Part shown: positions 3,492 through 37,159 of the stretch, in pieces | How positions within the stretch are numbered: position 1 is the stretch's first letter | How the letters are laid out: every line of letters begins with the position of its first letter | Assembly: GCA_938002955.1 (NCBI GenBank) | Contig: CALLAA010000082.1 | Coordinates: 1 to 37,262 of the forward strand | DNA: 37,262 nucleotides | Direction of reading: 5' to 3' | DNA from: an uncultured Acidimicrobiales bacterium | Lineage (GTDB): Bacteria > Actinomycetota > Acidimicrobiia > Acidimicrobiales > SHLQ01 | Program-made: the position numbers and the translations under genes | The notes under the pieces: model-generated | The model's input: only the letters and a program-made list of their open reading frames with translations | What the model was told of the DNA's origin: nothing | The model's database searches: none

Positions 3492-6394
3492 CCCTCCAGT
3501 TCACCGCCCATCTGCTCGCAATGACCGAGATGAACACCGACCTCGCCGTCGTCCGCAAGGAACAGGACCTCATCGACATCGCATCGAGCTACATCACCCG
3601 CATCTTCGAGGCGAACCGGGTCAGCTTGCTGCTCCTCGACGAAGAACGGACACACTGGCGAATCGTGACCCTGAGCGGGCAGCGCAATGGCGACCACCTG
3701 CTCACCGAACTGCCCGTTGCAGGTTCGATCGTCGAGGCGTTCCGCAATGCCGAGGCCGGTGTCTGCCAGGTGGATGACCTGCTCGCGACACCGCTCACCG
3801 GATCAACGATTCTGACCGACCGTGGTTACCGCTCGTTAGTTGCGTGCAACCTGCAACTCGACGGCGAGTTTTGTGGCAGCCTCAACCTCGTATCACCCGA
3901 AGTCGAGGCGTTCAACGAAGAACAACTGCTGATTGCTCGCCACGCTGCTGCGTTTCTCTCTGCAGCCCTGCAAAACGTCGACCGTTTCACCAAGTCGCGG
4001 CGGCAGTACACCGATTCGGCCGTTCTCAATACCGTCGCCGACCGACTCACCAGGGGCAGGTCGTTCAGCGGTACTGCCGCCCACGCTCTCGCTGCGGTAG
4101 CCGACCACCTCAACGTCGAACACTGCACGCTCGTGACCGAAAATCTCGATGGGCTCGCGCCACTCGGTGATCTGGTCTATCCGCTCGGCTCCCTAGAGGA
4201 CCCGCTCGGGTACATCGTCTTGCGCTCATCGTCGCCGATCACCGAACACGCCCGAGAATTCGTTCCAAAGGTTGGACGTCAGATCGCCGCAGCGCTCGAA
4301 CGCGAGCAATTGATCCAGGCAACGAACGCCGCGCGAGAAGCCGCCGAGCAAGCAAACCACGCAAAGAGCACGTTCCTCGCAAATATGTCGCACGAGCTGC
4401 GGACCCCAATGAACGGCGTGATCGGCATGACGAGCCTGCTCCTCGAAACACCGCTCCAACCCGAACAGCTCGAGTTCGTCAAGACGATTCGAACCAGCGG
4501 CGACTCACTCCTCACGGTCATCAACGACATCCTCGACTTCTCCAAGATCGAAGCTGGCAAGCTCGACCTTTCGCCCTGCGTGTTCTCGCTCAGTCGATGC
4601 ATCGAAGACTCACTCGACATCGTCAGCCACCGCGCACACGAGAGCGAAATCAACCTCGCGTACTCGATGGACCCGGACATGGCGGACACCTTCGTCTCCG
4701 ACGTGACACGAATCGGCCAAATCCTGAACAACCTGCTGAGCAACGCCTGCAAGTTCACCGAGGAGGGCGAGGTGCTCGTCGAGGTCGACGGTTCGCCGGT
4801 CACCGCCGAAGACGGGACCGTGCACTACGACATGCGAATCGCGGTCGAGGACACCGGGATCGGCATCCCGGCCGAACGACTCGATCGTTTGTTCAAGTCG
4901 TTCAGTCAGGTCGATGCGTCGACGACACGACGCTTTGGAGGCACCGGGCTCGGTCTTGCGATCAGCCGCCAGCTCGCCGAGCTCCTCGGCGGAAGCCTGA
5001 CGGTCACGAGCGAAGAAGGCGTCGGGTCGCGTTTCGAGCTTCACATTCCCTTGCCGGCCGCGACGACCCAGATCCGCGAACGTCACCAAAGCGACCCGCC
5101 ACCGAAGATGATCGGCTCGTCTGTTCTCGTCGTCGATGACATTGCGACGAACCGGCGAATACTCCAGAAGCAGCTCGAATCATGGGAGATATTTCCCACG
5201 CTCGCTGCCACGCCGTACGCAGCGCTGGACTTTGTCGAGACACAGCCATTCGATGTTGCGATTCTCGACATGCAGATGCCGGGCATGGACGGACTCGAAT
5301 TGGCCTACAAGATCCGCGAGCTGCGGCCGACCATGCCGTTGCTCTTGCTGAGCTCACTCGGACTCACCGAGGTTCCAAATGACGAGGTCTTCACCGCGCG
5401 CATGAACAAACCGGTGAAGCCGTCGGCACTGTTCGATGCCCTGATCTCGATTTTCGACGCCACCACATCGACCGGCCAGACAGCGGCCGTGACAAGCCAG
5501 CTCGACGAGGATTTTGCCGAGCATCATCCACTGCGGATTCTGCTCGCCGAAGACAACGTCGTGAACCAGAAAGTGGCCGTCGGGTTGCTGTCACGACTCG
5601 GATACCTGACCGACGTCGTCGGCAACGGCCTCGAGGCGATCGAGGCCATTGGGCGGCAGCACTATGACGTCATCTTGATGGACATTCAGATGCCGGAGAT
5701 GGACGGAGAAGAAGCCACTGCGGTGATCCGATCCACGGTGGCATCGGACGATCAGCCTCGAATCATCGCGATGACCGCACACGCCTTGGCCGAAGATCGA
5801 GCTCGTTTCCTCGCCGCGGGCATGGACGACTACGTGAGCAAGCCAATTCGGGTCGAGCAGCTGTGCGAAGCACTAAGTCGAGCAGCCGAGCAGGTCGCCT
5901 CCCCAAGCATCGCCGACGGTTCGCCAACGCTGGGTTCCATCGACGAGCGGCCGCTTGTGCCGCCGCCGACACCCAATGCTGCGTCTGGTGCGCCGCCGCT
6001 GCCGAGCAATTTCCACCAGAGCAATGTCGACCAGAGCGTTATCGACCACGGCGTCCTCGACGAGTTTGCCGAGATGATGGGTGAGGGTGGCGCGGCCGTG
6101 GTCTCGGGTCTGGTCTGCACTTATGTTTCGGAATCGACCAAGCTCATCGAACAGATCGCGGAGGAAACCGACCTCGACACCGTTCGGATCGCGGCCCACA
6201 CACTGAAGTCCTCGAGCCGGTCGATGGGCGCCCTCCAGCTCGGCGAACTCGCCGAGACGATCGAACGCTCGATCCGCGAAGGGGCCGGCGAAAGAGTCTC
6301 GGCAGAACGGGCCCGCATACGCGACGAGTTCACGGCTGCGAGGAACGAACTGCTGGAGGCCCGTCCGCCCGACGACATGCCCCTCGCAAGCTGA
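3488..6394 (+). CDS. Hybrid histidine kinase: GAF, HisKA, HATPase, REC, REC, HPt
   Basis: This encodes 968 residues starting at ATG 3488 in a 4-nt overlap with the receiver gene. An N-terminal GAF domain covers about residues 20-160, and a second, weaker GAF-like region covers about 180-280. A short coiled coil leads to HisKA with His302 ([11 protein letters not shown]) and a HATPase domain ([28 protein letters not shown]). Next come REC1 (about 544-660, Asp594 in [10 protein letters not shown]), REC2 (about 680-800, Asp732 in [10 protein letters not shown], Lys in VSKPI) and a C-terminal HPt domain with His904 ([14 protein letters not shown]). All phosphotransfer residues look intact, so the protein carries a full His-Asp-His relay. 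No transmembrane segment is seen, so it is probably cytosolic and senses through GAF. BarA- and TorS-like kinases share this layout. Its partner is probably one of the two upstream proteins. Confidence 0.93.
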
Positions 6395-29302: not shown

Positions 29303-30766
29303 TTATCGACCGGCGGAGATCTCGAGCATCCGGTCGAGATCGAGCTCGGTCTCGAGTTGCGCCGCCCATGCGTCGAGGGCTGCGTCGACGCGCTCGGCGT
29401 AACGGAGTTCCGACGAGTGGCGTCCCGGTCGGAGCTCGGCGAGGTATGCCGAACGAAATTCATCGCTCGCAAAGAGCCCATGAACATAGCTGCCAACGAT
29501 TCGACCATCGGCAGAGACCGACCCACTCGGCTCGCCATCGATCGTCAACCAGGGCCGATCGGTGCCTGGCCCGACCGTGCGACCGACGTGGATCTCATAA
29601 CCCGCAACGCCAGCCCCCGATGCCACATGCCTGCCGGCGACCGGACGCGTGATCTTGTCGGCGTGCAACGTAGTGGAGACGTCGAGTAGGCCGAGCCCGT
29701 CGACGTCGGCGATGGGTCCTTCGACACCATCGGGGTCGACTACCCGACCACCGAGCATCTGGTAGCCGCCACACACCCCAACGACCCGACCGCCTCGGCG
29801 AACGTGGGCAGCGAGATCGACGTCCCACCCTTGACGAGCGAAGAAGTCGAGGTCGGCAATCGTGGATTTGGTTCCCGGCATCAACACGACGTCGGCGACC
29901 GGCAACGGCTGGCCCGGCGGCACCATCGTCACGGTGACATCAGGTTCGAGCCCGAGCGGATCGACGTCATCAAAGTTCGCGATTCGGCTCAGCATGGGCA
30001 CCGCTACGTGAATGTCGCCAGCACCTCGATCGAGTGCTTCGAGTTCGACGGCGTCCTCGGCTGGCAGCGCCGCCAGATCTCGAGACCACGTCACCACACC
30101 AAGCGACGCCCAACCGGTGCGAGTAGAGATATCGGTGAGTCCAGCGTCGAAGAGGCCAACATCGCCTCGGAACTTGTTGATGAGGTACCCACGAATCATC
30201 GACCGATCCGCATCGTCGAGCACCACATGAGTGCCCACCAACGAGGCGATCACCCCGCCTCGATCGATGTCGCCGGCCAAAACGACCGGAACCTTCGCTG
30301 CGAGAGCGAACCCCATGTTTGCAATGTCGCCGACACGAAGGTTCGTCTCCGCTGGGCTTCCAGCACCTTCGATGACAACGATGTCGGCATTGGCCCTGAG
30401 CTGATCGAAACTCGTCAGCACCGGTTCGAGAAGACTCGACCGGTCCTCGGTGAAGCGGGACGCTTCGAGGGTGCCGACCGGGTGTCCGTGGACCACGATC
30501 TGCGCTCGACGATCAGACTCTGGCTTGAGCAGCACCGGGTTGTGATGCACCGAAAGCGGGACTCGCGCCGCGAGTGCCTGCAGCGCCTGAGCACGACCGA
30601 TCTCCCCACCGCCGGGAACCGCAGCTGCGTTATTCGACATGTTCTGCGGCTTGAAGGGCTGGACCGACATCCCCCGGTTAGCGAACGCTCGACACAACCC
30701 GGCAACGAGCACGGACTTGCCCGCATTGGAGTTTGTGCCCTGAATCATCAGCGATGGTGTCGTCAC
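29303..30766 (-). CDS. cobQ: Cobyric acid synthase
   Basis: This encodes 487 residues from ATG 30766. The N-terminal ATP-binding domain starts SLMIQGTNSNAGKSVLVAGL and has FKPQNMSNNAA; the C-terminal glutaminase has the nucleophile Cys in VVGVCGGYQMLGG and His in SYVHGLFASDEF. CobQ/CbiP amidates adenosylcobyrinic a,c-diamide at four side chains with glutamine as nitrogen donor. It is the only de novo corrin-ring modification gene in the window and lies apart from the salvage cluster, on the other strand. Either more de novo genes exist elsewhere, or the enzyme serves partial intermediates. No riboswitch core was seen before it. Confidence 0.96.
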   Translation of the reverse strand: MTTPSLMIQGTNSNAGKSVLVAGLCRAFANRGMSVQPFKPQNMSNNAAAVPGGGEIGRAQALQALAARVPLSVHHNPVLLKPESDRRAQIVVHGHPVGTLEASRFTEDRSSLLEPVLTSFDQLRANADIVVIEGAGSPAETNLRVGDIANMGFALAAKVPVVLAGDIDRGGVIASLVGTHVVLDDADRSMIRGYLINKFRGDVGLFDAGLTDISTRTGWASLGVVTWSRDLAALPAEDAVELEALDRGAGDIHVAVPMLSRIANFDDVDPLGLEPDVTVTMVPPGQPLPVADVVLMPGTKSTIADLDFFARQGWDVDLAAHVRRGGRVVGVCGGYQMLGGRVVDPDGVEGPIADVDGLGLLDVSTTLHADKITRPVAGRHVASGAGVAGYEIHVGRTVGPGTDRPWLTIDGEPSGSVSADGRIVGSYVHGLFASDEFRSAYLAELRPGRHSSELRYAERVDAALDAWAAQLETELDLDRMLEISAGR

Positions 30767-31469: not shown

Positions 31470-32102
31470 CTAGCTCGACGGGTCGGCCACGTAGCGAAGG
31501 TATGGCTTTACCTTGTCGAAGCCACCGAACTTTGCGGTCGCTGCATCATCGTCGAGTCCCGGTGAGACGATGACGCGTTCGCCGCTCGTCCAGTTCGCTG
31601 GCGTCGCGACCGAATGGTTCGCCGTCAGCTGCAAGCTGTCGATCACACGCAGCACCTCGTCGAAGTTGCGGCCGGTCGACGCCGGGTAGGTGATCATGAG
31701 CTTGACCGTGTGGTCAGGAGCGATGATGAACAGCGACCGCACCGTAAGGGTGTCGTTCGCGTTTGGGTGGATCATGTCGTACAGCCCGGCAACGACGCGG
31801 TCGGGGTCGCCAATGATCGGAAAGTTGACCGCAGCTCCCTGGGTCTCTTCGATGTCACCAATCCAGCCGTTGTGGTCCTCGACCGTGTCGACGCTGACCG
31901 CAATGGCCTTGACGTTGCGCTCGGCGAACGCTTCGCCGAGCTTTGCGGTCATACCGAGCTCGGTCGTGCACACAGGCGTGTAGTCCTTCGGGTGCGAGAA
32001 CAGGACAACCCATGCGTCGCCTTGCCAATCGTGAAAGTCGATGTCGCCGTGGGTCGTCGGTGCGGTGAAGTTCGGTGCGATATCGCCAAGCCTAAGTGCC
32101 AT
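31470..32102 (-). CDS. 1-Cys peroxiredoxin (Prx6/AhpC-TSA family)
   Basis: This encodes 210 residues from ATG 32102. The peroxidatic Cys45 is in SHPKDYTPVCTTELGMTA, with the Prx6-type Pro-Val-Cys-Thr-Thr-Glu loop. The later segments DTVEDHNGWIGDIEE, FPIIGDPDRVVAGLYDMI and the long C-terminal RVIVSPGLDDDAATAKFGG are characteristic of Prx6. No resolving Cys is seen. It reduces peroxides to alcohols or water with an outside thiol donor, in the cytosol. It follows the signal-peptidase-like gene (reading on the minus strand) by 114 bp, enough for its own promoter. Confidence 0.96.
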   Translation of the reverse strand: MALRLGDIAPNFTAPTTHGDIDFHDWQGDAWVVLFSHPKDYTPVCTTELGMTAKLGEAFAERNVKAIAVSVDTVEDHNGWIGDIEETQGAAVNFPIIGDPDRVVAGLYDMIHPNANDTLTVRSLFIIAPDHTVKLMITYPASTGRNFDEVLRVIDSLQLTANHSVATPANWTSGERVIVSPGLDDDAATAKFGGFDKVKPYLRYVADPSS

Positions 32103-32861: not shown

Positions 32862-32881
32862 AACTGAACGAGTGTTCAGTT
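32862..32881. promoter_or_regulatory. Operator-like palindrome upstream of the TauD-MOSC-RdhA run
   Basis: AACTGAAC-GAGT-GTTCAGTT is a perfect 8+8 bp inverted repeat with 4-bp spacer, centred about 40 bp upstream of the TauD-family start (32911) and 77 bp upstream of the signal-peptidase start. TGAAC(N4)GTTCA-type sites are typical of TetR-family regulators in actinobacteria. No TetR gene is in this window. Confidence 0.55.
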
Positions 32882-32910
32882 TTCGCTGTCGGTGATCTAC
32901 GATTGTGATC

Positions 32911-33744
32911 ATGTCGCTGAGCATTGATCGTCTCTCCCCAGCCCTCGGTGCCGAGATCTCCGGCCTCGATTCGAACACCGAGATCACCGCTGACCTCGCC
33001 GATCAACTGCACGCCCTCCTCATGGAGCATCAGGTGATCTTCATGCGAGACTTCGACCTCGCTCCGGCCAAAATGACCGAGCTCGGGCAGGCGCTCGGCA
33101 CCCTCGGGGCTCGCCATCACTCCTATGTGACCCATCCCGACAGCGACGACGTCGTGATCATCGAATGGAAAGACGACGACCTTCCCGACGCAGCCGAATG
33201 GCACAGCGACATGACCTATCGGGAGACCCCTCCCTTCGCTTCGATTCTCAAGGGGGTCGTGATTCCGCCCGCTGGCGGCGACACCCTCTGGGCCAGCATG
33301 TATTCGGTCTACGACTCGCTTCCAGCGGGCATGAAAGCCGACCTCGCAGAACTCGAAGCCGTGCACGACATGGGCGCCTTCCGCACCCCTGCCTATCGAG
33401 AAGGCGGCAACGACGGAATCCTCGAGGCATACACAAACGCAAAGACCGCCGTGCATCCAATGGTGTCGCACCACCCGGTCACCGGCCGGCCGTACCTAAA
33501 TGTGAGCGAGTCGTTCACTCGCTTCATCATCGGCCTGTCGGCGCCTGAAGGTGGCCGACTGCTCACCGAACTATTCGATCGGATCAACCGACCCGAACAT
33601 CACGTGCGCCTGCGCTGGAAGCCGAACACGATGGCGATCTGGGACAACCGAGGCACCCAGCACTACGCGGTGATCGACTATCTCCCGAACCGCCGGGTCA
33701 TGCACCGCGTCGCCGTCGTTGAGGACGCTCGCCAGCCCGTGTGA
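32911..33744 (+). CDS. TauD/TfdA-family 2-oxoglutarate-dependent dioxygenase
   Basis: This encodes 277 residues from ATG 32911. The 2-His-1-carboxylate iron site is H98-x-D100 (AEWHSDMTYRETPP) and His251 (WDNRGTQHYAVIDY), with Arg261/Arg262 after it for 2-oxoglutarate. The N-terminal LGAEISGLD and GARHHSYVTHPD are family-typical. Relatives hydroxylate the carbon beside sulfonate, aryloxyacetate (TfdA) or alkyl sulfate and release sulfite, phenol or sulfate. Which substrate applies here is not readable. It is followed 12 nt later by a MOSC gene and then a dehalogenase-like gene, so it may be the first step of a small catabolic unit. A TetR-type palindrome precedes it. Confidence 0.93.
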   Translation: MSLSIDRLSPALGAEISGLDSNTEITADLADQLHALLMEHQVIFMRDFDLAPAKMTELGQALGTLGARHHSYVTHPDSDDVVIIEWKDDDLPDAAEWHSDMTYRETPPFASILKGVVIPPAGGDTLWASMYSVYDSLPAGMKADLAELEAVHDMGAFRTPAYREGGNDGILEAYTNAKTAVHPMVSHHPVTGRPYLNVSESFTRFIIGLSAPEGGRLLTELFDRINRPEHHVRLRWKPNTMAIWDNRGTQHYAVIDYLPNRRVMHRVAVVEDARQPV

Positions 33745-33756
33745 CAAGATCGCCCG

Positions 33757-34470
33757 ATGGACCTACGAATTCGTTCCATCTGGCGCTACCCGGTGAAGTC
33801 GATTGGCGGCGAGCAGCTCGACTCCGCCCCGGTTGCCACGACCGGCATTGTCGGCGATCGCTCATTCGGCATACGCGATATCGAGACCGGCCTCACCCTG
33901 ACGGCGCGGCGCCAGCCCGAGCTGCTCTTCGCCTCAGCTACATGGTCGGCTGGTTCGGTCCAGATCACGCTGCCAGATGGCACAACGACAGATAGCGACG
34001 CCGACCTATCGAACTGGCTGGGCAAGCCCGTCGAGCTCGTCGAAGCAGGCGCAGGCCCGGGTCGGTATGAGAACCCGATGGACGTCGAGAACGACGCCGA
34101 CTGGGTGCAATGGGACGGACCGGAGGACACCTTTCACGACAGTGGACGAACCCGAGCATCTTTGGTGAGCACGTCGAGCCTTCGAGCGTGGGCTCCCGAG
34201 CGGTTCCGCAAGAACTTCATCTGTGACGGCATGGGCGAGGACGAACTCGTGGGCGCGCACATCACCATTGGTGACGCAGCATTCGCCGTGACCAAACGTG
34301 TCGATCGCTGCGTGATGGTGACGAGGCCCCAGCCAGGAATCGAACGAGACCTCTCGGTTTTGAAGACCATCAACGCCGAAAGCCAATCCGCACTCGGCAT
34401 TGGTCTGACGGTCGACCGGGCCGGAAGTGTCACCATCGGCGATGCTGTTGCTAGCGCTTCTGGTTCCTGA
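33757..34470 (+). CDS. MOSC-domain protein (MOSC_N + MOSC)
   Basis: This encodes 237 residues from ATG 33757. The N-terminal beta-barrel (IRSIWRYPVKSIGGEQLDSA then VGDRSFGIRD) is the MOSC_N region, and the C-terminal MOSC domain carries the conserved Cys in KRVDRCVMVTRPQPGIERD plus LSVLKTI. Related proteins (YcbX, MARC) bind molybdenum cofactor at this Cys and reduce N-hydroxylated or similar compounds; others act in sulfur-carrier reactions. No fused ferredoxin domain is present, so a partner must supply electrons. It sits between the dioxygenase and the dehalogenase-like gene (1-nt overlap). Confidence 0.92.
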   Translation: MDLRIRSIWRYPVKSIGGEQLDSAPVATTGIVGDRSFGIRDIETGLTLTARRQPELLFASATWSAGSVQITLPDGTTTDSDADLSNWLGKPVELVEAGAGPGRYENPMDVENDADWVQWDGPEDTFHDSGRTRASLVSTSSLRAWAPERFRKNFICDGMGEDELVGAHITIGDAAFAVTKRVDRCVMVTRPQPGIERDLSVLKTINAESQSALGIGLTVDRAGSVTIGDAVASASGS

Positions 34471-35603
34471 TGATCGACGACATCGTCAACGACGACTTCG
34501 AGCGATTTAGCCAGGTCGACGATGTCTTCTCACGTTCGATGTGGGACGACCGCATTCGCGACGAACGCAGCGACACGTTCTTCGCCACCTATCGACGACC
34601 CCTCACGAAGTGGCGCAAAGCGAACGGCTTCACCCAACGCGACTACGCCATTCGCAACGCGTCGTGGCACGTCGCCGACATCTTTGCCGAGATGTTCGAG
34701 GACGGCGATCGACGAGACGGCTTTCTCGATCCGCTGTCGATGTTGCGCGACGGGGCGAGCGAGAGAGTCGACGTTGGATCGCCCGAGCAGGCCAGCCGAG
34801 AACTCAAGCAGGTATCGAAAGTGTTCGGTGCCGACCTGATCGGCATTACCAATTTCGACGAACGCTGGGTGTACACCGAACGCTTCAGCGCCTCGGAGAA
34901 AGGCCCCAAGCCCAACGAGTTGCCCGACGGCCTCACCCATGTAGTCGTCATTGGCCAGGAGATGAACGACTCGCTGATCAAAACGGCGCCGTCGGCACTT
35001 TCTGGCACTGCCACGGGTCTTGGCTACTCCACCGATGCCACCGTGCTGCTCGGAATGGCCCAGTACATCCGCAACCTCGGCTACCAAGCGATCGCGTCGA
35101 TGAACGACACCGCACTGGCGATCCCCCTCGCCATGCAAGCTGGCCTCGGCGAATACGGGCGGCACGGTCTGGTTATCAGCCCCGAGCTCGGCCCGCGCTT
35201 TCGCATCGGCAAGATCTTCACGGACATGCCACTCGCGACCGACGCACCGCAGGCGTTCGGGGTCAAGGAGTTCTGCGAACAGTGCGATCGCTGCGCAGAC
35301 AAGTGCCCGGCCAAGGCAATCCCCCACGGCGAACCCAACTGGCAGCCCGTAAACATCTCGAGCATCAAGGGAGTCAAGAAGTGGTCCGTCGATGGCGAGA
35401 AGTGTTTCAGCTACTGGTCGAAGATCAACAGCGACTGTGCGGTCTGTGTCCGCGTCTGTCCGTACACACGTGACTACAGCAAGCGCCGCAACCGACTTTG
35501 GCGACGGTTGGCGGGAACCCGGTTCCGGGGCCTCGCAATGAAGATCCACGACGCGACGGGCGGCAGCGATCGCCTCAAGTCCAACGACTGGTGGGTCGGC
35601 TAA
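34470..35603 (+). CDS. rdhA: Reductive-dehalogenase-like corrinoid/2[4Fe-4S] protein, cytosolic
   Basis: This encodes 377 residues from ATG 34470 (1-nt overlap with the MOSC gene). Two cluster motifs: C269-x2-C272-x2-C275-x3-C279P (FCEQCDRCADKCPAKAIP) and C312-x10-C323-x2-C326-x3-C330P. The spacing in the second is that of reductive dehalogenases. The preceding FGADLIGITNFDERWVY, LGEYGRHGLVISPELGPRFR and IGKIFTDMPLATDAP are also RdhA-like. Epoxyqueuosine reductase (QueG), the related cobalamin enzyme, has AGLGWIGKNS-type sequence instead. There is no twin-arginine signal and no RdhB-type anchor, so it resembles cytosolic catabolic RdhA. The fused flavin/ferredoxin reductase of some catabolic forms is absent. 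It likely binds cobalamin, supplied by the salvage system. A halogenated substrate is predicted, not shown. Confidence 0.8.
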   Translation: MIDDIVNDDFERFSQVDDVFSRSMWDDRIRDERSDTFFATYRRPLTKWRKANGFTQRDYAIRNASWHVADIFAEMFEDGDRRDGFLDPLSMLRDGASERVDVGSPEQASRELKQVSKVFGADLIGITNFDERWVYTERFSASEKGPKPNELPDGLTHVVVIGQEMNDSLIKTAPSALSGTATGLGYSTDATVLLGMAQYIRNLGYQAIASMNDTALAIPLAMQAGLGEYGRHGLVISPELGPRFRIGKIFTDMPLATDAPQAFGVKEFCEQCDRCADKCPAKAIPHGEPNWQPVNISSIKGVKKWSVDGEKCFSYWSKINSDCAVCVRVCPYTRDYSKRRNRLWRRLAGTRFRGLAMKIHDATGGSDRLKSNDWWVG

Positions 35604-35636
35604 GACGCCAGGCGCCCCTGATCGAGTTATGAACGA

Positions 35637-35692
35637 ACCTGGCACCTTTTCGCCAAAAGGTACCAGGTACCTTTTTGGCTATTGGTACCTGG
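35637..35692. repeat. Pair of overlapping palindromes (REP-like) before leuC
   Basis: Hairpin 1 (35637-35668): ACCTGGCACCTTTT-CGCC-AAAAGGTACCAGGT, 13 of 14 bp paired. Hairpin 2 (35663-35692): CCAGGTACC with GGTACCTGG around a loop TTTTTGGCTATT. The unit GGTACC(T/A)GGTACC is repeated in both orientations, the arrangement of REP/BIME-type elements mobilised by RAYT transposases. No RAYT gene is present here. It lies 34 nt after the rdhA stop and 58 nt before leuC, and could also end transcription. Confidence 0.75.
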
Positions 35693-35749
35693 TACCTGGC
35701 ATGCCGTTGGGGTGCCGCAGGCAAAAGCGAGCCAGATAGCCTGCAAGCC

Positions 35750-37159
35750 GTGAGCACCGAAGCCAGAACCCTCAGCCAGAAGGTGTGGGACGACCATGTC
35801 GTCCACTCCGAAGACGGCCAGCCAGATCTCCTCTACGTCGACCTGCACCTCGTGCACGAAGTCACGTCCCCGCAGGCCTTTGATGGTCTTCGGCAGAACG
35901 GCCGGACGGTTCGTCGCCCCGATCTGACGATCGCGACCGAGGATCACAACGTTCCAACCGAGAACATCGATCAGCCAATCGCCGACGAGATCTCCGCCAA
36001 GCAGGTCGAGACGCTTCGGGTCAACACCGACGAGTTCGGCATCACGAACTACCCCATGGGGCACGTCAACCAAGGCATTGTGCACGTCATCGGCCCCGAG
36101 CAGGGTCTGACCCAACCGGGAATGACCATCGTGTGCGGCGATAGCCACACGAGCACCCACGGTGCATTCGGTGCGCTGGCGTTCGGCATCGGCACCAGCG
36201 AGGTCGAGCACGTGCTCGCTACCCAGACGTTGATTCAGCCAGCGCAGGAGACCATGTCGATCACCGTCGACGGTGTGCTTCCTGAGGGCTCCACGGCCAA
36301 GGATGTCGTGCTCGCGATTCTTGCCGCGTGCGATACCGGCGGCGGCATCGGTGCCATTGCTGAGTTCCGTGGTCCGGTCATCGAGGCACTGTCGATGGAA
36401 GGCCGCATGACGGTCTGCAACATGTCGATCGAATTCGGTGCAAAGGCCGGACTCATTGCGCCAGACGAAACGACCTTCGAATACCTGAAGGGTCGCCCAA
36501 ACGCCCCGCAAGGTGCCGATTGGGATGCGGCCGTTGCCTACTGGCGCACGCTCAAGACCGACCAAGGCGCGGTCTTCGATCGCGAGGTCGTCATCCACGG
36601 CGAGGACATCACCCCGCACGTGACCTGGGGAACCAACCCCGGACAGGTCATCAAGCTTTCCGACAATGTGCCAACCCTCGACATGTTCGACGATCCGGTC
36701 GCCCGCGATGCAGCCGAACGAGCACTCGAGTACATGGGCCTCACCGCTGGCATGCCCATGAAGGACGTTGCCGTCGACACCGTCTTCATCGGAAGCTGCA
36801 CCAATAGCCGCATCGAAGACCTTCGGGCAGCAGCCGCTGTCGCACAGGGTCGATCGGTGAAAGACGGCATGCGCACACTCGTCGTACCCGGATCGGGTCT
36901 CGTCAAGAAACAAGCCGAGGCCGAAGGTCTCGACAAGATCTTCATCGACGCCGGTTTCGACTGGCGTGAACCGGGCTGCTCGATGTGCCTGGCAATGAAC
37001 CCGGACAAGCTCACCGAAGGCGAACGTTCGGCCTCTACGTCGAACCGCAACTTCGAAGGGCGCCAAGGCCGCGGTGGACGGACCCACCTGGTCTCCCCCG
37101 CCGTCGCTGCTGCCACCGCAATCGCTGGCACGTTCGCCACCCCAAAGGACTTAGCATGA
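35750..37159 (+). CDS. leuC: 3-isopropylmalate dehydratase large subunit
   Basis: This encodes 469 residues from a GTG at 35750 ([20 protein letters not shown]). A TTG in frame inside the upstream repeat would add 25 unrelated residues and is rejected. Aconitase-superfamily motifs: [55 protein letters not shown] and [13 protein letters not shown], with the three Cys that bind the 4Fe-4S cluster. With LeuD it isomerises 2-isopropylmalate to 3-isopropylmalate in leucine synthesis. Length matches LeuC. The TGA stop overlaps the ATG of the next gene (ATGA). Confidence 0.97.

Follow-up and report, generated by a model that had tools for sequence, protein, structure and literature searches.

The 37,262-nucleotide (nt) contig CALLAA010000082.1 of an uncultured Acidimicrobiales bacterium (hereafter the window; contig C82 of a 3.93-Mb genome that is 89.5% complete) carries three closely packed genes encoding a TauD/TfdA-family dioxygenase (TauD), a MOSC-domain protein (MOSC) and a protein of the reductive dehalogenase family (RdhA). 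We consider it probable, judging from sequence comparison and a structural model, that this is a species-level neighbourhood with one interesting gene: RdhA would be a cytosolic, non-respiratory corrinoid dehalogenase, similar to the published T7RdhA, lacking a twin-arginine translocation (TAT) motif and mostly encoded on its own, and TauD and MOSC most likely form no pathway with it. The genes and the cluster motifs of RdhA, numbered by amino acid (aa) residue, are as follows.

32911–33744, + strand: TauD/TfdA-family Fe(II)/2-oxoglutarate (Fe/2OG) dioxygenase, 277 aa, with an ATG start and GTG at 32905 as an alternative
33757–34470, + strand: protein with MOSC_N and MOSC domains, 237 aa, assigned by Pfam
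34470–35603, + strand: RdhA, a short, T7RdhA-like corrinoid and 2×[4Fe–4S] reductive dehalogenase-family protein, 377 aa, assigned by TIGR02486, invariant residues and AlphaFold2 with Foldseek
35274–35309, + strand: first cluster motif of RdhA, C269-x2-C272-x2-C275-x3-C279-P280, all four cysteines kept in 76/76 family sequences
35403–35462, + strand: second cluster motif of RdhA, C312 and C323-x2-C326-x3-C330-P331, with C312, C323 and C326 kept in 76/76 and C330 in 75/76

An initial annotation had described three + strand genes with 12-nt and 1-nt junctions, and the coordinates confirm it: TauD and MOSC are separated by 12 nt (33745–33756), and MOSC and RdhA overlap by 1 nt (TGATG at 34468–34472). 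It had drawn the group as 32862–35603, which fits RdhA at its end but begins about 45 nt ahead of the earliest start codon open to TauD. Because the junctions are so tight, co-transcription of the three genes is plausible in the window species; a search for regulatory sites gave 0 promoter-like and 1 terminator-like sites, not above shuffled sequence.

RdhA scored 187.5 bits (5e-55) against the NCBIfam reductive dehalogenase model TIGR02486, passing its curated cut-off of 160.35, and 58.6 bits against the QueG model, whose equivalog cut-off of 200 it did not reach. Its sequence matches in the PDB ran from tetrachloroethene dehalogenases (2.3e-53 and 1.5e-49) through NpRdhA (1.2e-30) to QueG (3.3e-9). 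The PDB alignment with PceA is gapless over residues 151–253 at an offset of 60 and places Tyr186, Asn212 and Arg245 of RdhA on Tyr246, Asn272 and Arg305 of PceA. All three residues are invariant in the 76 aligned family sequences (the window protein and 75 others, with four partial rows and L092 omitted), and we take Asn212 and Arg245 to have the catalytic roles of their PceA equivalents. Both [4Fe–4S] motifs are likewise kept. An AlphaFold2 model built from the 76 sequences had a mean predicted local distance difference test score of 91.8 and a predicted template modelling (TM) score of 0.91, and Foldseek matched it best to 8q4h_A (E 5.4e-26; TM 0.82 by query length), followed by PceA at about 1e-24 (TM 0.65–0.73), NpRdhA at about 4e-17 and QueG at about 1e-7. 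The predicted fold, and the active site as read from the alignment, are those of a reductive dehalogenase.

We then placed RdhA in a tree of 34 rows, for which the program warned of long branches, including the window family, two respiratory enzymes, the NpRdhA/BhbA type and eight QueG rows. All eight QueG rows lay beyond a 100/100 branch from RdhA, and the NpRdhA/BhbA type, joined by two long proteins from the same order as the window, lay behind a separate 100/100 branch; its own family and the respiratory type formed the group that holds the window protein (81/88). With a separate QueG-like gene in the same genome (L002) and a model score far under the cut-off, we rejected QueG as an identity for RdhA; the bit scores, the tree and the Foldseek ranking all uphold the initial annotation on this point. 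Three other RdhA-like proteins of the order (L019, L020 and L021), 34–35% identical to the window protein, fell outside both the T7-like and the NpRdhA groups.

The window protein has no TAT-like motif, and among 81 family N-termini such a motif occurred once, in a protein whose long start is doubtful. Its highest 19-residue hydropathy was 1.01, short of the limit of 1.6 used for membrane-spanning segments; three of the 81 members (L113, L115 and L126) exceeded that limit, internally. No RdhB anchor gene stands beside it, with MOSC before it and leuC after it and no room before leuC, and its 377 aa hold a single core with neither a vestigial duplicate nor a fused reductase. According to PMC10463259, RdhAs fall into four subfamilies, namely respiratory, transmembrane, catabolic with a reductase and catabolic without, of which the catabolic ones have a vestigial duplicated core; the architecture of the window protein matches none of the four as described there. 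TAT-less RdhAs from several taxa have been catalogued, including Ros_A3X954 of Roseobacter sp. MED193, which converts 2,6-dibromophenol to 2-bromophenol (PMC13101508).

When 84,980 species were scanned, each represented by a single genome, 331 stretches encoding relatives were found, and the family figures reported here rest on the best 80 of these, which are 58–99% identical to the window protein. Of these loci 59 belong to Actinomycetota (nearly all Acidimicrobiia), 10 to Gemmatimonadota and 7 to Binatia, with one each from Trueperaceae, Neomarinimicrobiota and SAR324 and one unplaced. Even among the best 80 of 331 the family spans six phyla, with members from other phyla 58–62% identical to the window protein, and 87 residues are invariant in the 76 aligned sequences. 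Counted from the earliest start available in each, 81 proteins of the family have a median length of 405 aa. One locus, L092, carries at 4150–5265 an RdhA homologue with one in-frame stop. In a plasmid collection, 34 records matched, at identities of at most 33.9% in the places listed.

No recurrent partner emerged around these genes. Neighbours came from a simple open reading frame (ORF) picker that is weak on low-GC loci and covers ORFs from about 80–90 aa upwards; in 69 of the 80 loci the sequence upstream of RdhA extends for 2 kb or more, contigs may end early and metagenome-assembled genomes may be mis-binned. When genes around the 80 loci were clustered, the widest clusters covered 17 and 9 loci without a fixed place, and most others stayed within close relatives; same-strand neighbours gave no partner for the family as a whole. 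Pfam assignments for 144 neighbours, counted over the 25 commonest of 107 families, found the commonest family in 7, TauD in 2 and PhyH in 2. Ten chosen adjacent genes comprised an ABC transporter, PhyH, an aminotransferase, an amino acid permease, a helicase, an FAD oxidoreductase, DUF4241 and three without a Pfam family. A conserved partner gene was therefore rejected, the clustering, same-strand and Pfam surveys having yielded none family-wide; the only pairing at the level of a lineage is that of RdhA with a following PhyH gene in L065, L066 and L069.

Such solitariness and strong conservation would be explained if RdhA were instead a corrinoid reductase of another bond, as QueG is of an epoxide, acting on a substrate that is not a catabolite. 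The 58–62% identity retained in other phyla, the 87 invariant residues and the lack of a recurrent catabolic cluster all fit this alternative, which we nevertheless think unlikely, since the Tyr/Asn/Arg set of PceA is retained in 76/76 sequences, the tree places the protein with respiratory RdhAs and not with QueG, and its distribution is patchy, a close orthologue occurring in 14 of the 117 other relatives searched, unlike a housekeeping gene.

These 14 carriers and the window give 15 genomes with a close RdhA (in two of them, L037 and L040, the contig has less than 1 kb upstream of it). Around the trio, the window itself holds the following genes.

35675–37159, + strand: leuC ORF as listed, 494 aa, downstream of RdhA
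31470–32102, − strand: 1-Cys peroxiredoxin, upstream of TauD
29303–30766, − strand: cobyric acid synthase CobQ, about 4 kb from RdhA

Of the 15, the only genome besides that of the window in which TauD and MOSC adjoin RdhA is G008, with all three proteins 98–100% identical to those of the window, and among the 80 family loci the trio is found only in L048, which is the same sibling. Gene-by-gene searches showed that six genomes (G003, G007, G013, G016, G017 and G018) possess the whole set, RdhA sharing a contig with neither TauD nor MOSC. In G007 and G009 the TauD and MOSC genes are neighbours, no more than about 50 nt apart and without RdhA alongside; the TauD of G009 is partial and lies where a contig ends. 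The place beside leuC is taken by TauD without the other two in G004 and G005, by MOSC without the other two in G003 (a homologue with one in-frame stop), and, in G006 and G010, by RdhA without the other two, with acyl-CoA ligase/hydratase genes on its other side. These single genes show that the region upstream of leuC is a variable stretch where each of the three genes can be present or absent regardless of the others, not a conserved unit, and the neighbourhood as a unit is unsupported beyond the window species. The initial annotation had joined the three genes in one pathway and had proposed that their order be sought in other genomes; as far as the contig flanks reach, there was no recurrence in distant genomes, the order being essentially unique to one strain and its near-identical sibling. 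No description of the trio, or of the spread of the RdhA family in aerobes, was found in the literature covered (supplements and subscription papers lay outside the search). The trio itself is ordinary, and only RdhA is remarkable.

Both neighbours of RdhA have the identities first given to them and look functional on their own, judging by their conserved residues. TauD matched the Pfam TauD family at 5.3e-56, and its closest solved chains are taurine dioxygenases, the best being the E. coli-type TauD 1gqw (2.2e-60); against the taurine-dioxygenase equivalog of NCBIfam it scored 260.7 of 313 bits, under the cut-off and still within the TauD/TfdA family. The iron ligands H98, D100 and H251, together with R266, are invariant in the 8/8 aligned sequences, window included. 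By hand count, H70, Y73, W248 and R270 of E. coli TauD, residues with functional roles in that enzyme, correspond to H69, Y72, W244 and R266, whereas the counterpart of N95 is A94. A TfdA-like (aryloxy) activity is disfavoured by the solved relatives, and a sulfonate-type substrate is our guess. MOSC matched MOSC_N at 2.4e-15 and MOSC at 3.3e-11 in Pfam and had no solved homologue in the PDB at E ≤ 0.01; its C185, invariant in the 4/4 aligned sequences including that of the window, is presumably the molybdenum ligand that it is in related proteins.

Several observations weigh against our reading of RdhA as a stand-alone dehalogenase of an aerobe. The tight junctions suggest that in the window species it is co-transcribed with TauD and MOSC. 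A PhyH-family Fe/2OG oxygenase follows RdhA by about 12–15 nt in the related loci L065, L066 (9147–9959) and L069 (9159–9971), assigned by Pfam on L066, and in L053 a different TauD (28%) stands beside RdhA on the opposite strand; this is one of the two TauD-family neighbours in the Pfam count, the other of which was not located by BLAST. There may accordingly be a loose functional link between Fe/2OG oxygenases and RdhA, and small partners could have been missed, given that 25 of the 107 Pfam families were counted and that ORFs below the size range of the picker were not covered. In the 34-row tree the window family was set against the two long-branched respiratory rows with weak support (57/96). 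Finally, the Roseobacter debrominase is inactivated in oxygen, which is awkward for an aerobe, and an 'Actinomycetes' RdhA that may or may not belong to the window family, A0A2E6VL94, was inactive on the compounds tried (PMC13101508). Fe/2OG oxygenases stand beside RdhA in three separate settings in all, those of the window TauD, the L053 TauD and the PhyH genes of L065, L066 and L069.

Such neighbours (L053, L065, L066 and L069) would fit the three-gene pathway, in which oxidation by TauD splits a halogenated compound of sulfonated or aryloxy type, RdhA dehalogenates the product and MOSC gives electrons or sulfur, as would the 12-nt gap, the 1-nt overlap and the TauD–MOSC adjacency in G007 and G009. 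We judge that pathway very improbable all the same: the trio occurs in one species pair, in six genomes that have the full set RdhA shares no contig with the other two, TauD stands alone at leuC in G004 and G005 and MOSC alone in G003, and TauD-type genes are so common in the relatives, with up to 20 matches in one genome, that the adjacency of one to RdhA is cheap.

We next considered the physiology of the host. Its genome has two COX1-family (heme-copper oxidase) matches above cut-off, so the host is apparently aerobic, in line with the initial annotation, which had cited the 1-Cys peroxiredoxin that we also find in the window. COX1 was detected in 18 of the 20 RdhA genomes searched, including 8/8 of those at least 90% complete; the two misses were G008 (84% complete) and a small Neomarinimicrobiota genome. 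CbiC, used as a single marker gene of corrin ring synthesis, was found neither in the host genome nor in the 14 RdhA relatives (0/14; 15/15 of the genomes checked in the window's order without it), and the same search was positive in 7/14 control genomes; CobN was not found in the host genome either. With CobQ encoded and CbiC and CobN not found, corrinoid is probably salvaged. Genes of the blastp cluster of CobQ also lie near RdhA in G006 and G010. Organohalide respiration by this protein, although its score and fold are nearest to PceA-type enzymes, is scarcely credible given that the window protein lacks a TAT-like motif (which is nearly absent from the family too), that no anchor gene would fit before leuC and that the host has heme-copper oxidases.

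On the cytosolic, non-respiratory reading, RdhA would be a cytosolic protein folded about one corrinoid and two [4Fe–4S] clusters, as its family, its cysteines, the modelled fold and the cofactors reported for T7RdhA suggest. A general low-potential donor such as ferredoxin or flavodoxin would pass electrons through the clusters to yield Co(I), and no electron-donor gene is linked to RdhA in the window. Co(I) would then take the halide off a small halogenated substrate, with Tyr186, the counterpart of PceA Tyr246, giving the proton in the role described for it in the literature, and with Arg245 presumably assisting catalysis. We infer the reaction and the substrate by analogy: the characterised TAT-less RdhAs point to natural halogenated, mostly brominated, phenolics, and the purpose would be detoxification or the opening of a carbon source, not respiration. 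The corrinoid would be scavenged rather than made, and TauD, which may be a sulfonate dioxygenase, and MOSC, of molybdenum-cofactor type, although maybe co-transcribed with RdhA in the window species, would most likely share no pathway with it.

A close published counterpart appears to be T7RdhA from Acidimicrobiaceae TMED77. Eleven of its residues are named in PMC10008544, and all 11 map to the window protein at a constant offset of 27, with 9/11 identical and two conservatively changed (Tyr65 to F38 and Lys258 to R231). Of the 81 family members, 18 share 10 or more of these residues with unchanged numbering, and 11 of the 18 share them all. Judging by this constant-offset fingerprint, T7RdhA is very probably a member of the window RdhA family. 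The same article used 529 clade members, so the family is already known as sequences, and reports a corrinoid and two clusters bound to T7RdhA produced in E. coli, with the binding of perfluorooctanoic acid (PFOA) modelled by docking; the protein is also named in PMC11090348 and PMC12940359. For A6RdhA of Acidimicrobium sp. A6, rdhA expression correlated strongly with fluoride release, and rdhA gene counts rose with defluorination in sediment columns (PMC13366567). That the window protein is a dedicated defluorinating enzyme for per- and polyfluoroalkyl substances (PFAS), as proposed for A6RdhA and T7RdhA, is suggested by these correlations and by pocket residues like those of T7RdhA, which was docked with PFOA, and we give it next to no weight, since the review PMC11022551 states that there is no empirical evidence for the action of either enzyme on PFAS, and a family retained at 58–62% identity across six phyla looks too old and too wide for a man-made substrate.

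Elsewhere in the window, signal peptidase I, the 1-Cys peroxiredoxin and CobQ all lie on the − strand upstream of the trio, and the stretch separating RdhA from leuC contains a palindromic repeat whose cores read GGTACC (35632–35701). A pattern derived from the repeat had 38 matches (≤3 mismatches) in the host genome against 2 for the reversed control, often paired at one place on opposite strands, and so looks like a dispersed element of the repetitive extragenic palindromic type. The listed leuC start is a TTG within this repeat, and the LeuC ORFs picked in L160, L161 and L164 are shorter, at 465–469 aa; the true start is therefore probably further in than the listed TTG.

Taken more widely, we put forward, tentatively and as somewhat less than an even chance, that the window gene represents an RdhA architecture distinct from the four subfamilies described in PMC10463259: one corrinoid core with no TAT motif, anchor, vestigial domain, fused reductase or fixed partner, encoded mostly as a lone gene in at least six phyla. 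Cytosolic dehalogenation of natural organohalides on scavenged corrinoid would then be common in oxygen-respiring bacteria, and A6RdhA and T7RdhA would be members of an old family, not PFAS specialists; other TAT-less forms such as Ros_A3X954 may belong with it. That an aerobe can have a cytosolic RdhA without a TAT motif is no novelty on its own, being already known from PMC10463259 and PMC13101508. If the proposal were true, B12-dependent dehalogenation would have a place in common oxygen-respiring bacteria and not just in specialist anaerobes, it would be linked to corrinoid exchange between cells, and two enzymes cited in the PFAS literature as defluorination candidates would gain a natural context.

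Compared with known systems, the window protein has the core fold, both clusters and the Tyr246/Asn272/Arg305 set of the respiratory RdhAs (PceA, 4uqu and 8q4h), but is without the TAT-like motif, has shorter insertion and N-terminal parts and leaves no room for an anchor gene. With the catabolic enzymes NpRdhA, BhbA and JtRdhA it would share a cytosolic location, occurrence in aerobes and the chemistry expected of it; those enzymes, however, measure about 700–1100 aa, contain a vestigial second copy of the core and often carry a reductase at the C terminus (PMC10463259), whereas the window protein is one 377-aa core outside their 100/100 branch. The class III corrinoid fold is common to QueG, from which RdhA differs in reaching 58.6 of the 200 bits required, in the 100/100 split of the tree and in the presence of a separate QueG-like gene (L002). 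Ros_A3X954, compared by its published description only, is likewise TAT-less with one RdhA domain named, and has similar motif letters and the motif spacing of 54 found here (269 to 323), a spacing that by hand count is also that of PceA and so does not discriminate; it gives a clue to the substrate without proving kinship. Relative to T7RdhA and A6RdhA the window protein has a shorter N-terminus, and while PMC10008544 terms the Acidimicrobiaceae anaerobic, the window host has heme-copper oxidases. The window RdhA is thus a new member of a known, little-studied family.

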